Shown piece by piece: positions 5,404 through 32,728 of a stretch of 64,000 bases of DNA. A program made the position numbers and the translations under genes. Below the pieces are notes generated by a model that did not search any database, was not told the DNA's origin, and saw only the letters and a program-made list of their open reading frames with translations. Numbering within the stretch: the stretch's first letter is position 1; each line of letters starts with the position of its first letter. The stretch is taken from assembly GCF_014218355.1 (NCBI RefSeq), contig NZ_AP023368.1, positions 1,306,001-1,370,000 on the forward strand. Reading direction: 5' to 3'. This DNA comes from Anaerocolumna chitinilytica (GTDB lineage: Bacteria; Bacillota; Clostridia; Lachnospirales; Lachnospiraceae).

Positions 5404-5895
5404 ATGAATTTAATTGTTGCAGTAGATAAAAACTGGGCGATAGGTTACCAGAATAATATGCTAATCAGTATCCCTGAGGATATGCGTTTTTTTAGGGATG
5501 AGACTACCGGTAAAGCAGTCATTATGGGACGTAAGACTATGGAGACCTTTCAGGGAGGTAAGCCTTTAAAGAACCGGCTGAATGTCGTAATAACCACAAA
5601 AGATATTCAGATAAATGATGCTATTGTAGTTCACAGCATAGAAGAAGCTTTGGAAGCAGTAAAGGAATATAAATCAGAAGATGTTTATGTAATAGGTGGT
5701 GAGAGTATTTACAACCAGATGATTGATTACTGCGATACCGCTCATGTTACAAAGATTGATTATGCCTACCATGCAGATACGTATTTTCCGAATCTGGATG
5801 AGAGGAAGGACTGGAAGATTGTTGCGGAATCAGAAGAGCGTACGTATTATGACATTGAATATGCTTTCTATAAATATATGAAAGTAAGGCAATAG
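5404..5895 (+). CDS. folA: Dihydrofolate reductase
   Basis: Reduces dihydrofolate to tetrahydrofolate with NADPH. The ATG at 5404 has GGAGG 6 bases upstream; the longer frame has no site. The 163-residue protein is of standard length and shows the N-terminal NLIVAVDKNWAIGYQNNML, the adenine-binding MGRKTMETF motif and the VIGGESIYNQM loop. It lies directly behind thyA, whose reaction makes its substrate, so the two are likely one operon. Confidence 0.93.
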   Translation: MNLIVAVDKNWAIGYQNNMLISIPEDMRFFRDETTGKAVIMGRKTMETFQGGKPLKNRLNVVITTKDIQINDAIVVHSIEEALEAVKEYKSEDVYVIGGESIYNQMIDYCDTAHVTKIDYAYHADTYFPNLDERKDWKIVAESEERTYYDIEYAFYKYMKVRQ

Positions 5896-25807: not shown

Positions 25808-26737
25808 ATGGGGAGACCTCCAAAGCAAGGGCTAGACTACTTTCCGAAAGATGTTGACTATTACGAAGATTTCAAAATCATGGATTTGCTGAATACGTAT
25901 GGACCCTTAGGGCAGACAATCTACGATATTGTAGTATCCATGGTGTATCACGAAGGCTATTACCTGGAAGTGCCTCTGGATAAGCTGGTGAGTAAAATCA
26001 TCCGGATTATTGGGAACCGGTGGATTAAAGACAAAAACCTTGTGTTACAAGTTATTCATTATTGCGCGGATATAGGACTTTTCCATAATGACCTCCTGAT
26101 GCAAAATGTTATAACCTCTATAGGAATTCAGCGACGCTATCAAGAAGTGACTGTTAGGAACAAGGTTCAAAAAGAAAAATACTGGTTGATTGATAAAAAT
26201 GGTCAACCTGTATTAAATGCACCTATAACGCAGGTTTCTGTAACAGAAACTCAAATTAATGTAACAGAAACCGAGGTTACTGCATCGGATATTCAACAAA
26301 AGGAAAGTAAAGAAAATAATAATATATATATGTCTATTGTAGACTACCTGAATCAGAAATGCGGTACTAAATATCAAAACACCGCCATAGAGACTATACA
26401 GCTCATCCTTGATAAGTTAAGCAGAGGTTTTAACTATGAGGATTTTATAAAGGTTATTGATATAAAAGCTGCTGAATGGCTTGGTGATGATAAAATGCAG
26501 AAATTTCTCCGGCCTTCCACTCTTTTCGGTAAGAACTTTGAAAGCTATCTGAATCAAAAGGCAGCAGCACCAAAGGAGCAGCACACTAAAAAAAGCAGCA
26601 ATAAGCCTGCAGCTAATAGATTTAATCAGTTCCCACAAAGAGATTACTCAATGGAAGATTACTCCACTATGGAGCAGAAATTATTGGGAAGGAGTAAAAG
26701 TAATGAATGTAGAGGACCAGGAATGCAAGGACTGTAA
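25808..26737 (+). CDS. Phage replication initiator, DnaD-like (DUF4373 / Phg_2220_C type)
   Basis: Probably opens the phage origin and recruits host helicase. The 309-residue protein has an N-terminal winged-helix DUF4373 domain (DYFPKDVDYYEDFKIMDLLN, residues about 8-120), a Thr/Glu-rich linker (about 140-170) and a C-terminal conserved phage domain (YLNQKCGTKYQNTAIETIQL, LRPSTLFGKNFESYLNQ, about 178-256). No DnaC-like loader follows, so host loader proteins are presumably used. AGATAGG precedes the ATG; the 3' end overlaps the next small gene. Confidence 0.85.
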   Translation: MGRPPKQGLDYFPKDVDYYEDFKIMDLLNTYGPLGQTIYDIVVSMVYHEGYYLEVPLDKLVSKIIRIIGNRWIKDKNLVLQVIHYCADIGLFHNDLLMQNVITSIGIQRRYQEVTVRNKVQKEKYWLIDKNGQPVLNAPITQVSVTETQINVTETEVTASDIQQKESKENNNIYMSIVDYLNQKCGTKYQNTAIETIQLILDKLSRGFNYEDFIKVIDIKAAEWLGDDKMQKFLRPSTLFGKNFESYLNQKAAAPKEQHTKKSSNKPAANRFNQFPQRDYSMEDYSTMEQKLLGRSKSNECRGPGMQGL

Positions 26738-26846
26738 ATATAGAAAATTATCATTGTTTGATGAGCCCTGTAAGAGTTGTCACTGGGAAGGTGGAGAGGT
26801 TGGATATACTTACTGGGAATCGGCAGATGTTCATGAAATAGTGTAG
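26703..26846 (+). CDS. Small zinc-knuckle phage protein
   Basis: 47 residues with two CxxC pairs (CKDC near residue 8, CKSC near residue 23), a likely single zinc site. GGAAGGAG lies before the ATG. The gene begins inside the end of the replication gene, so translation is probably coupled. It ends 14 bases before the tRNA-like RNA on the other strand. Function unknown. Confidence 0.7.
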   Translation: MNVEDQECKDCKYRKLSLFDEPCKSCHWEGGEVGYTYWESADVHEIV

Positions 26847-26859
26847 GAATGTGAGTAAA

Positions 26860-27083
26860 ATAATCAGCTTAGGAAGACCCTTGCTCTACCTAGCTGAGCT
26901 ATATCACTAACCAAAGAAGATACTAAAACATAAATAACTGCTCCAATAAACTTCATAAGCACCACTTCCTTTTCTAGTAAACAAAATGAAATATAGTACG
27001 CAACGGACAAAAGTAAAATATTATTGGTTATTATGTGATAGTTGGATTTGAACCAACGACCAAGGTTTTCCTAAACTGATTAT
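26860..27083 (-). ncRNA. Circularly permuted tRNA-like RNA (224 nt)
   Basis: On the minus strand the 3' half of a tRNA precedes its 5' half. The T arm is GTTGG-TTCAAAT-CCAAC (27057 down to 27041), followed by acceptor TATCAC. After about 127 nt come GTGATA, TA, the D arm GCTC-AGCTAGGTA-GAGC and anticodon stem AGGGT, which pairs with ACCTT next to the T arm. The anticodon arm is open and extended by a helix of 16 pairs whose ends are the RNA's 5' and 3' ends. tRNA invariants U8, A14, G15, G18, G19, A21, U33, C48, U54, U55, C56 and A58 are present. A promoter would start transcription at the first stem base. If the halves were joined at the loop, the anticodon could be UCC. Confidence 0.7.
26864..26956 (-). 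CDS. Candidate 30-aa peptide encoded across the tRNA-like 5' half
   Basis: Inside the loop of the permuted RNA an AAGGAAG site precedes ATG at 26956. The frame (MKFIGAVIYVLVSSLVSDIA at the start) continues through the acceptor, D arm and anticodon stem to TGA at 26864-26866. The N-terminal 16 residues form a possible membrane helix. Translation would unfold the tRNA-like domain, so peptide synthesis and folding would exclude each other. It may also be a chance frame. Confidence 0.35.
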   Translation of the reverse strand: MKFIGAVIYVLVSSLVSDIAQLGRARVFLS

Positions 27084-27089
27084 ATTAAT

Positions 27090-27117
27090 ATTATAGCATG
27101 ATTTGTAAATAAAACAA
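27090..27117 (-). promoter_or_regulatory. Promoter of the permuted tRNA-like RNA
   Basis: On the minus strand TTGTTT (27117-27112), 16 bases and TATAAT (27095-27090) with an extended TGC motif just before the -10. The predicted start, 6-7 bases on, is 27083-27084, the first base of the terminal stem. Confidence 0.65.
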
Positions 27118-27175
27118 TTAATTGGCATAAAAGAAAGGATAAAAGTTCCGGCCGGACAAAGGGTTATAAGTGAGT

Positions 27176-27478
27176 TTATTTCTTAAATAAATCACTTAAT
27201 GAACCAAAAAGATCATATATGCCAGATAATAAACGTGCTGCTTTCTTTGATGACCTAACAGACTTTCCAGATAATCTACTTAAACCATATGTAGCATTGG
27301 AAATAATACAGCCTATAATACCAGAAATAATTAAACTTATAATCAGAGTCCTGGTAACAGGGTACAGCCAAATAGCCTTAATTAATTCACTGAATGAATG
27401 GAATATGCTTTCAAAGATTAATCGATTAAGGTCAATTGCAAAATTTTTAAGTGTTTCATTTATTATACTATCGTTCAC
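27176..27478 (-). CDS. Small membrane protein next to the tRNA-like RNA
   Basis: 100 residues from a GTG at 27478 with AAGGAGG 6 bases upstream. One strong transmembrane helix lies near residues 44-64 (TLIISLIISGIIGCIISNAT), with an amphipathic helix before it and a Lys/Ser/Arg-rich stretch after it (SVRSSKKAARLLSG). It runs against the surrounding phage genes and its stop is about 80 bases before the RNA promoter on the same strand, so the two may be one accessory unit. A second, antisense frame of equal length has no ribosome site. Confidence 0.6.
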   Translation of the reverse strand: MNDSIINETLKNFAIDLNRLIFESIFHSFSELIKAIWLYPVTRTLIISLIISGIIGCIISNATYGLSRLSGKSVRSSKKAARLLSGIYDLFGSLSDLFKK

Positions 27479-29711: not shown

Positions 29712-29782
29712 TAGAATAATATTGATAAATGGTAACATTTGTATTAAACTTATTTATATATTTTAACTTTGGGGAGGCTTTT

Positions 29783-31546
29783 ATGCAAGATCTGACTGTG
29801 CGTTCAGAAAGTATACAAAGAATTTATAGTTTTTATATTAATGATAAGTTATTAGTGAATCGAAGATATCAACGAAAACTTGTTTGGACTATAGATGAGA
29901 AGGCTGCTTTCATTGATTCTATACTTAAAGAATATCCAGTGCCTTTATTTTTATTAGCGGAAGATACAAAAGAGCAAGGATCTATATTTGAGATCATCGA
30001 TGGCATGCAAAGATTGGATGCAATTACATCATTTATAGAAGGGCAGTTTTCTGTAGAAGGGAAATACTTTGATCTGGACTCTATGGCAGAGAGTAAACTA
30101 CTTTTAGATAATGGAGGACTTATACAGAAAACCCCTAAGTTAGAAAGGAATATATGTTCTAATATATTCGCATCATATGTGCTTCCATTATCTATTTATA
30201 AAAAAGAAAGTGAAGAACAAATAGATGAAATTTTCCGAAGAATAAATTCTAATGGGAAGCATCTATCAAGACAAGAAATAAGGCAGGCGGGTTCAGTGTC
30301 AAAGTTTGCTGAATTAGTAAGACTAATATCATCTGAAATCAGAGGAGATGTATCATTAGAAAATAGATTATTACTAAATGACATGAAAAAAATAAGCATA
30401 ACAAATAAAGATTTAGAGTACGGAATAAATGTTGATAATGTTTTTTGGGTAACTAATTCTATAATTAGACGTGAAAAAGTAAGAGAATCAAAGGATGAAG
30501 AAATAGTTGCAGATATTTTAGCTTATGTCTTACTGGATGAGAAACCCTTATCTAGTAGTAATGCTCTTGATGACTTTTATGGATTTAATTCTGAAAACAA
30601 AAAGAGTAAAGAGTTAGACGAAAAAATAAAAATTAGAGGTATAGATAAAATAAAATCTGAATTTTTTACAGTATACGATATAATCAAAAGTGTCGTAAAT
30701 TTTTCAAATCAAAAATTACAACAACTTATGTTTAAAGAGAAAAGCTCAGATCAAATACCTAGATATTTTCAAATAGTATTTTTAGCACTGTACCAATTGG
30801 CTGTATTTCAAAATAAAAAAGTCAGCTCAATTGCCAGATTAGCTGAAGTATTTCAGGGCATAGGTAATCATATAAGCTTAGGACAAGGAGGTGGCAATTG
30901 GAGCGCCAAGGAAAGAGAAACAAACATTGAAGGTGTTGTAGGTATATTAAATAAATGTTTTATTAAGAATTTAGAAGATCCTGCTATGTTAAAATGGAGC
31001 ACTGAGTTAGAGACAATATTAAGACAATCCACTACTGAGCAAACTTGTTTTGATTTTAAGATTGGCTTTACATCCTTATCTAAAAGAGAGTTTGTAGATA
31101 AAACTTTTGATAAAGTTGTAAAAACATTGACTGCAATGGCTAATAAAGGGAAGGGAAGTGTCGGTTATGTAATAATAGGTGTAGCTGATAAAAATATAGA
31201 TGCTGAAGAACTGGAAAAAATCACTGGTGAAAAATCTATACAATGTGGAAATTTTAAAATCACAGGAATTAATCATGATATGGAATTTTTAAATATTACT
31301 GATGATAAATATTACCAATATATAATACAAAAGTTAGATAAGCAACCTATTTCTCCTAAATACAAATCCTCAATTGGAAATTTAGTTAGGTTTATGTCAT
31401 ATGGTAATAAAAAAGTTATCATTTTTAAAATAAATGCTTTAGATGAACCTGCTTTTTATGATAATAAATATTATGAACGTAAAGGTGCAAATATCGCAGA
31501 AATTGAAATGACTCGTGTAGTGGAATTGACCAAAAGATTTCTTTAA
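29783..31546 (+). CDS. DUF262 (ParB-like nuclease fold) fused to an AlbA_2/Schlafen-type domain
   Basis: A probable anti-phage or nucleic-acid-interacting protein. ATG at 29783 with GGGGAGG is preferred to the earlier ATG at 29729. Residues about 5-190 match DUF262: RRYQRKLVWTIDEKAAFIDS, the conserved IIDGMQRL motif and the FRRINSNGKHLSRQEIR segment seen in GmrSD-type enzymes. Residues about 410-587 resemble AlbA_2 (FDFKIGFTSL, then AMANKGKGSVGYVIIGVAD, then YYERKGANIAEIE). The fusion is unusual in that DUF262 normally pairs with DUF1524. It is AT-rich and stands alone before a terminator. Confidence 0.75.
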   Translation: MQDLTVRSESIQRIYSFYINDKLLVNRRYQRKLVWTIDEKAAFIDSILKEYPVPLFLLAEDTKEQGSIFEIIDGMQRLDAITSFIEGQFSVEGKYFDLDSMAESKLLLDNGGLIQKTPKLERNICSNIFASYVLPLSIYKKESEEQIDEIFRRINSNGKHLSRQEIRQAGSVSKFAELVRLISSEIRGDVSLENRLLLNDMKKISITNKDLEYGINVDNVFWVTNSIIRREKVRESKDEEIVADILAYVLLDEKPLSSSNALDDFYGFNSENKKSKELDEKIKIRGIDKIKSEFFTVYDIIKSVVNFSNQKLQQLMFKEKSSDQIPRYFQIVFLALYQLAVFQNKKVSSIARLAEVFQGIGNHISLGQGGGNWSAKERETNIEGVVGILNKCFIKNLEDPAMLKWSTELETILRQSTTEQTCFDFKIGFTSLSKREFVDKTFDKVVKTLTAMANKGKGSVGYVIIGVADKNIDAEELEKITGEKSIQCGNFKITGINHDMEFLNITDDKYYQYIIQKLDKQPISPKYKSSIGNLVRFMSYGNKKVIIFKINALDEPAFYDNKYYERKGANIAEIEMTRVVELTKRFL

Positions 31547-31897: not shown

Positions 31898-32728
31898 ATG
31901 GGAGAGATAAGGGAATCGAAAGAGAAATGCTTCGTTATTATGCCAATAAGTGATCAAGAGGGGTATCCTTCAGGGCATTTCCAAAAGGTGTATGACCAGA
32001 TATTAAAACCAGCTATAGAAGAAGCTGGGTACGTTGCATATAGAGTTGATGAGAATAAGATATGCGACCCCATAATTAACAAAATATTTGATGCTATTCA
32101 AAATTGTGAAATGGCTATATGTGATTTAAGCTCTAAAAATCCGAATGTATTATATGAATTGGGTTTGCGGCAAGCTTATGATAAACCAGTTGTTTTGCTT
32201 CAAGATACACGAACTGAAAAAATATTTGATGTTGGAGGCATAAATACTGTTTTTTATAATGATAGCAGATTATACGAAGATGTCATTGATGCAAGGAATA
32301 AAATTCGAGATGCAATAATTGCGACAAGAGATGGTCAAGGATTAGGCGGATCAATTGTTAAAGTAGTAAAAGCTGGAGTGGCTAATGTAAGTGCAGATGC
32401 CATAACACAAGATGAGAAATTACAAATAATATTAAATTCTATAAAAAATGATCTACAGCAAATAAAGGAAACTAATAGAAACATTACATTTAGAGCACAA
32501 GAGGATGAAATCTATTCCCTTTGTAGAGAGGTAATTGATTCAATAGATTTACTTACAAACAACGAATTGGCCCAAAAATATGATAGAATAATGTTCTTTG
32601 ATAAAAAAAATACAAATTTAATTGACGAAAGAACAAAAAATTTAATAACTAAGGTTGACCATTTAGTACAAAATCGTTGGGATAGAGAAATAAGAATTTT
32701 AAAAGAAAAAAATGTTATAAATGAATAG
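31898..32728 (+). CDS. TIR-like / nucleoside 2-deoxyribosyltransferase-like domain protein
   Basis: Likely a nucleotide-processing effector. Residues about 10-130 have the Rossmann-like pattern CFVIMPISDQ, GYVAYRVDEN, NCEMAICDLSSKNPNVLYELG and KPVVLLQD; the D-x-S-x-x-N-x-N-V-x-Y-E-L-G motif is diagnostic of this superfamily, which includes NAD-consuming TIR-like effectors and deoxyribosyltransferases. Residues about 150-276 are helical and may bind a partner or signal. AGGAGAA precedes the ATG. It is the first gene of a two-gene operon with a membrane protein, as in two-component defence modules. Confidence 0.65.
   Translation: MGEIRESKEKCFVIMPISDQEGYPSGHFQKVYDQILKPAIEEAGYVAYRVDENKICDPIINKIFDAIQNCEMAICDLSSKNPNVLYELGLRQAYDKPVVLLQDTRTEKIFDVGGINTVFYNDSRLYEDVIDARNKIRDAIIATRDGQGLGGSIVKVVKAGVANVSADAITQDEKLQIILNSIKNDLQQIKETNRNITFRAQEDEIYSLCREVIDSIDLLTNNELAQKYDRIMFFDKKNTNLIDERTKNLITKVDHLVQNRWDREIRILKEKNVINE

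Follow-up and report, generated by a model that had tools for sequence, protein, structure and literature searches.

A probable orphan tRNA mimic of the bacterial Y RNA type, predicted in a prophage of Anaerocolumna chitinilytica

A prophage of Anaerocolumna chitinilytica carries a predicted RNA that we interpret, with moderate confidence, as an orphan, Ro-less tRNA mimic of the bacterial Y RNA type. The RNA lies within the stretch of 64,000 nucleotides that was analyzed as a whole, hereafter the window, and its sequence, predicted fold and topology are presented here together with the layout that it has in common with Y-type RNAs. On the minus strand from 27083 to 26858, one strand of a foot helix is followed by a T arm, the 3' strand of an acceptor stem, an acceptor loop, the 5' strand of the acceptor stem, a D arm and the second strand of the foot helix (Table 1). 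An earlier note, made from the sequence alone, had placed the T arm and acceptor 3' strand ahead of the acceptor 5' strand and D arm, and this order was confirmed both by reading and by structure evaluation. The interpretation given in that note is partly supported by the present analysis: it was right that the RNA is tRNA-like and circularly permuted, that a promoter fits it and that it lies in a prophage. The RNA is, however, probably not a permuted tRNA but an unusual look-alike.

The two ends of the RNA were claimed to lie in a long helix, and all of its elements were found, including a foot helix, a C32-A38 mismatch and, beyond this mismatch, a remnant of the anticodon stem. The tRNA core letters U8, A14, G15-C48, G18G19, A21 and the T-loop TTCAAAT are all present by reading, as the note had stated, and the 7-bp extension that it had described on the acceptor side was likewise recovered. 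The acceptor-like stem consists of six pairs; a seventh would be A-A. The gap between the acceptor strands is indeed long, but its length was corrected from approximately 127 nt to 125 nt, counted with 7-nt strands. Within this gap, the 110-nt stretch 26915-27024 gave a z of -1.51, and the interior of the acceptor loop is therefore not clearly structured.

Table 1. Features of the predicted RNA and its immediate surroundings in the window. R1 is a model built from 20 short-loop cores.
Feature	Coordinates	Strand	Remarks
Predicted RNA	26858..27083	-	~226 nt; 3' end inferred from the stem end followed by TTT
Foot helix, 5' strand ATAATCAGTTTAGGAA	27068..27083	-	structure evaluation
Foot helix, 3' strand	26860..26875	-	16 pairs, one G-U, without internal loop
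Anticodon-stem remnant, 3' strand ACCTT (positions 39-43)	27062..27066	-	5-pair stem
Anticodon-stem remnant, 5' strand AGGGT (positions 27-31)	26877..26881	-	5-pair stem
T arm GTTGG-TTCAAAT-CCAAC	27041..27057	-	reading and structure evaluation; R1 15.3 bits, E 0.011
Acceptor-like stem, 3' strand TATCAC	27035..27040	-	6 pairs with 26902-26907
Acceptor-like stem, 5' strand GTGATA	26902..26907	-	6 pairs with 27035-27040
7-bp acceptor extension, TAACCAA	27024..27030	-	pairs with 26908-26914
7-bp acceptor extension, TTGGTTA	26908..26914	-	pairs with 27024-27030
Acceptor-loop interior, 109 nt	26915..27023	-	two predicted hairpins, the first overlapping Shine-Dalgarno-like AGGAAG
D arm GCTC-AGCTAGGTA-GAGC, preceded by U8 A9	26883..26899	-	R1 13.7 bits, E 0.032 for 26883-26939
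Extended -10 promoter TGCTATAAT	27090..27098	-	perfect motif; 6 nt to 27083, the first foot-helix base
30-codon open frame MKFIGAVIYVLVSSLVSDIAQLGRARVFLS	26864..26956	-	AGGAAG 8 nt before ATG; hydrophobic start
100-aa frame beside the RNA	27176..27478	-	on the strand of the RNA, with AAGGAGG and a GTG start; looks membrane-like by eye

The free fold of the RNA has an energy of -68.1 kcal/mol (z = -6.65), which none of 200 shuffles matched. In this free minimum, the D arm and the anticodon-stem remnant are both missing in their canonical form, and a fold forced to hold all canonical stems has an energy of -66.3 kcal/mol, 1.8 kcal/mol above it. Chance expectation was assessed with a strict scanner that demands a T stem of 5/5 pairs around TTC[AGT]A, at least 6/7 acceptor pairs, a D stem of 4/4 pairs with GG and a gap below 250. 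The scanner returned one match in the window versus 11 in 4684 dinucleotide-shuffled windows, and a foot helix of at least 12 pairs was present in none of these 11, whereas that of the window RNA has 16. ARAGORN recognized no tRNA at this position of the window, no Rfam family matched the RNA at its gathering score, and the Rfam tRNA model, for which the gathering score is 29, gave 16.3 and 14.9 bits on the two halves. Model R1 similarly detected two separate halves only, with the scores listed in Table 1. With a relaxed scanner setting, one additional match appeared in the window, on the plus strand near 5860, with a gap of 222 nt and the same arm order.

The extended -10 motif upstream of the RNA proved perfect, and six nucleotides lie between it and the first stem base. 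Minus-strand transcription from the extended -10 is a prediction from sequence. TTGTTT at 27117-27112 constitutes a weak -35 with a spacing of 16 nt. Across the window, the motif TGNTATAAT occurs 16 times on both strands where 7.75 occurrences are expected, a generic promoter scan was at chance level (5 versus 4.1), and no terminator was found. The 30-codon open frame crosses the acceptor and D arm and stops inside the foot helix, and it may be a chance product. For the 100-aa frame beside the RNA, a protein search returned the frame itself alone, and none of the 26 viral stretches that share a word with it encodes a relative.

Genes for an integrase, a repressor, a replication initiator and a terminase bear out the placement of the RNA inside a prophage, and the repressor and integrase genes lie on the same strand as the RNA. 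Prophage relatives were found through the replication initiator on two contigs, both of which diverge before the RNA locus. The same prophage also holds a defense-like cluster, with a GmrSD_N/Schlafen-AlbA_2 protein at 29729-31546 and a protein with a weak TIR-effector match at 31898-32728.

Permuted tRNA genes and permuted tmRNA had been named as the nearest comparison, but a closer class is YrlA, the tRNA-like subclass of bacterial Y RNA (Rfam RF02553), which is a published circularly permuted tRNA mimic (PMC11472068; PMC8394870). A circular permutation brings bacterial Y RNA into superposition with tRNA (PMC11472068). Its paired ends form a basal stem that is bound by Ro, and its tRNA-like domain, which comprises D, T and acceptor arms, is the module that binds PNPase (PMC8394870). 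Y RNAs of phages have been mentioned (PMC7765460), including those of mycobacteriophages and a proposal for the P100-like Listeria phage CKA15 (PMC12282133), so that a phage RNA resembling a permuted tRNA does not by itself constitute a new kind. A theta-ribozyme identity, which had been considered for the permuted class, was dropped once YrlA matched.

We compared the module layout of the window RNA with that of loci L265-L267, L152, L153, L170 and L251. Like YrlA, the window RNA has a circularly permuted tRNA module in the order T arm, closed acceptor and D arm, its 5' and 3' ends are paired as a basal stem (16 pairs in this case), its module lacks a decoding end, and it belongs to the bacteria and phages in which YrlA also occurs. 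Bacterial Y RNAs are usually described together with Ro, and the interrupted part of their basal stem, with its UUACUUC-type strand, is the Ro site. In contrast to the interrupted stem of YrlA, the foot helix of the window RNA is continuous over 16 bp, and no TTACTTC was seen by reading before its T arm. The acceptor loop of 125 nt with its 7-bp extension is also unlike YrlA, and the total length of 226 nt exceeds the 90-150 nt given for YrlA (PMC8394870). On the window RNA, the Rfam YrlA model scored 14.9 bits (E 4) against a gathering score of 69, with the D-arm side alone aligned. The TROVE profile PF05731 had no match in the host genome or in any of 299 genomes of the host family and matched one of 14 control genomes (Deinobacterium), although the profile may miss Ro-like proteins that have diverged. 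The host genome also gave no match to a Ro-like protein of the host family, in a search run without a positive control. The host rtcB gene lies approximately 1.16 Mb from the RNA, and no Y-type RNA was found in the 4.1 kb around it. Because these Ro features were tested and not found, we did not file the window RNA as a Y RNA.

The same layout was examined in viral loci. In viral contigs, 102 of the 120 listed matches to the pattern of T arm followed by D arm lie between two normal tRNAs, and some loci show a T arm, an acceptor strand, a few nucleotides, the second acceptor strand and a D arm without a normal tRNA that overlaps them according to ARAGORN. When applied to 262 viral loci among the matches listed, the scanner produced 36 rows, three of which are the window itself, and the remaining 33 represent at least 29 distinct cores, with L026 and L065 being close kin. 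The acceptor loop is at most 18 nt in 25 of the 29 distinct cores and 41, 41, 75 and 111 nt in the others; the longest belongs to L180, while L216, with its 75-nt loop, resembles tandem tRNAs and comes from a record outside the 21 that were searched for a Ro gene. Another 134 viral loci among the matches listed added at least 15 rows with loops from 5 to 115 nt, some of which, such as L355, are doubtful. All these counts are lower bounds and do not estimate frequencies. L363, which combines a 74-nt acceptor loop, GTTACTTC and a foot helix, exemplifies the long structured loops that occur within the class. The covariation that the note had named as a check was seen in the wider set of 20 short-loop cores, where it is partly built in because the scanner demands at least 6/7 acceptor pairs. 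On the minus strand of L355 near 13178, tRNA-like stretches are broken by a repeated element of approximately 30 nt, GGTTATCTnGTTTnAGATACGGACAGC.

A TROVE (Ro) gene was present in 8 of the 21 viral records that carry such an RNA, and those in which none was found may be fragmentary. TTACTTC lies no more than 40 nt ahead of the T arm at five of the eight TROVE loci versus none of the 13 others, and the foot stem appears by eye to be interrupted in many of the eight. By eye, seven phage loci (L012, L074, L152, L153, L170, L171 and L251) seem to hold, between the foot stem and the T arm, a full anticodon arm whose loop is 7 nt long, as in CCAC-CTGTTAA-GTGG of L074, such that they contain nearly an entire tRNA in permuted form; their records contain a TROVE gene. 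Listeria phage P100 gave one scanner row, which overlaps a normal tRNA. On the minus strand of P100 (L330, 24072-24623), a ROOL-like RNA (E 1.4e-16; 86 bits, gathering 99.1) lies within approximately 1 kb upstream of gp165, which has DUF2828/DUF7788 domains and not TROVE. This ROOL-like RNA may belong to the abundant RNAs that were discussed as possible Y RNAs in a P100-like phage (PMC12282133).

In the host family, R1 found a match in every one of 200 genomes, and we judged these matches to be mostly tandem tRNAs. Six of 30 listed loci show the layout and no normal tRNA, and the other 24 gave no candidate. At four loci (L265, L267, L270 and L278), the Y-type RNA comes after a gene that encodes an RtcB domain. 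All six RNAs match Rfam YrlA below its gathering score (E 8e-10 to 6e-5; 36.8-53.6 bits), as do five of seven viral loci at E <= 0.01, the exceptions being L171 and L181. The YrlA model also matched 183 of 299 family genomes at E <= 0.001, none above the cut-off, and 6 of 14 known control genomes. Six of 20 listed YrlA loci from the family genomes are Y-type by the scanner, five of which were already among the earlier candidates, which suggests that most YrlA matches in family genomes are probably tandem tRNAs. Because apparent tandem tRNAs and control genomes also give 31-39 bits, a weak YrlA score says little by itself, and gene context outweighs it.

Further arrangements were noted beside the RNAs of the host family. 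In L265 and L267, the gene order is rtcB, Y-type RNA and a protein of approximately 680 aa (P0002), the middle part of which weakly resembles the TROVE/Ro60 fold and which has TerD at its end. P0002 is possibly a divergent Ro missed by Pfam; Foldseek alone gave no match for it at E <= 0.001. L270 and L278 show a different partner arrangement, in which rtcB and the Y-type RNA are followed by an SPFH/Band 7 protein. Extra TTACTTC-type elements occur beside the Y-type RNAs of L012, L265, L266 and L267, and in L265 and L267 some have a T-arm-like hairpin with no D arm seen; these elements are perhaps other Y RNAs in tandem.

Searches for relatives of this exact RNA yielded one weak 36-nt match and no homologue in 97 other genomes, and no homologue in 14 other genomes of the genus. 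A pattern built on its D loop matched no viral contig and two genome contigs, both of which hold ordinary tRNAs. In the host genome, R1 gave 34 matches, and each of the 20 listed coincides with a normal tRNA and yields no candidate for another Y-type RNA. A MITE or other repeat was rejected, with a single full copy in the genome. In the open-access papers searched, neither the window RNA nor a phage Y RNA that is free of Ro was reported.

Other explanations of the locus were weighed against the Ro-less mimic. If tRNA-processing enzymes excised the 125-nt acceptor loop, the result would be a two-piece tRNA-like RNA whose strands are joined by the foot helix and whose one 3' end is open to CCA. 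The gene order is that of permuted tmRNA, the transcript of which is cleaved into two pieces (PMC11915505), and the window RNA also shares with permuted tmRNA (RF01849-51, RF04321) a long acceptor gap, unlike the short-loop majority of the distinct viral cores among the matches listed. However, permuted tmRNA was rejected when no tmRNA family matched 26700-27300 in Rfam at E <= 10, and the window RNA differs from it in a D arm able to form four pairs and in the absence, by reading, of G3-U70 from its acceptor. Moreover, leader and trailer are joined by the pairs of the 7-bp extension, and pairing of a leader with 3'RCCA is reported to inhibit an RNase P binding step (PMC9433436). RNase P/Z processing with CCA addition, which the note had proposed to probe, finds no support in a structure that has no anticodon arm and carries seven further pairs on its acceptor. 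We consider the two-piece RNA unlikely. The RNA could alternatively be the messenger for a small hydrophobic peptide of 30 codons. Its ends would then be locked by the long-range tRNA-shaped fold, as the 5' and 3' ends of type I toxin mRNAs are by theirs. The ATG, the AGGAAG and the hydrophobic start of the frame are consistent with this explanation, as is the position of the Shine-Dalgarno-like stretch inside a predicted hairpin, but frames of 30 codons are common by chance, this one passes through the D arm, and the interior of the loop is not clearly structured. We consider a messenger unlikely.

Tandem tRNAs give T-to-D spacings similar to that of the window RNA, and most of the listed pattern matches in viral contigs lie between two normal tRNAs. 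The locus could be a relic in which two tandem tRNA genes have each lost their outer half and the inner halves that remain pair by accident. Nevertheless, the helices of acceptor, extension and foot are all complete, with 6, 7 and 16 pairs, the combination of core and foot helix arose in none of the 4684 shuffles, and in BLAST the D half matched no host tRNA although the T arm matched short stretches. We consider such a relic unlikely. Finally, in a true permuted tRNA gene, the ends would be cut back and then joined within the anticodon loop to yield a working tRNA. Permuted tRNA transcripts of algae and archaea are circularized and then cleaved to standard tRNA (PMC10085705), and the order of halves in their genes is that of the window RNA. 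The host has RtcB, and a plausible loop of 7 nt would result from a join of ...CUUCC with AA..., but it can be drawn by reading solely if the foot helix is removed. Both the 16-bp helix and the 125-nt acceptor loop would have to go, and unlike the algal and archaeal genes, the window RNA has no anticodon arm and no splicing motif that we could see. A group I intron around the RNA was rejected, with no Rfam match at gathering score. We regard a working permuted tRNA as very improbable.

The orphan, Ro-less Y-type mimic that we favor would operate as follows. Its own promoter would drive the RNA on the strand of the repressor and integrase genes, the two ends would zip into the basal stem, and at the opposite end the T arm, sealed acceptor stem and D arm would rebuild, in circularly permuted order, the elbow of a tRNA together with its acceptor half. 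Neither charging nor decoding is expected, because the acceptor is sealed by six pairs, seven more and a loop and because an anticodon arm is absent. Proteins that recognize the tRNA elbow would be expected to bind the RNA, which may serve as a tether or decoy for such a protein, by analogy with the YrlA module and PNPase. Its partner is not a Ro protein recognizable by the Pfam TROVE profile. A bolder and unlikely reading is that this is the first Ro-free, sealed-acceptor tRNA mimic, expressed by a temperate phage in the lysogen, where it would occupy a tRNA-elbow enzyme (an anticodon nuclease, another tRNA-directed defense or PNPase) while its acceptor loop acts as a message for a membrane peptide, which would make it a tRNA decoy and an mRNA in one.

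The window RNA represents a tRNA-mimicking module separated from Ro, with the topology kept in the absence of a Ro-type stem or a recognizable Ro gene and with a predicted promoter of its own, and it lets the function of the tRNA-mimic module alone be asked. For 'permuted tRNA' calls in phages, it advises that they be compared with Y RNAs first. The tRNA-like domain of YrlA has been proposed to act as a competitive inhibitor of anticodon nuclease (PMC7790460), and the prophage RNA would provide a natural test of this proposal.
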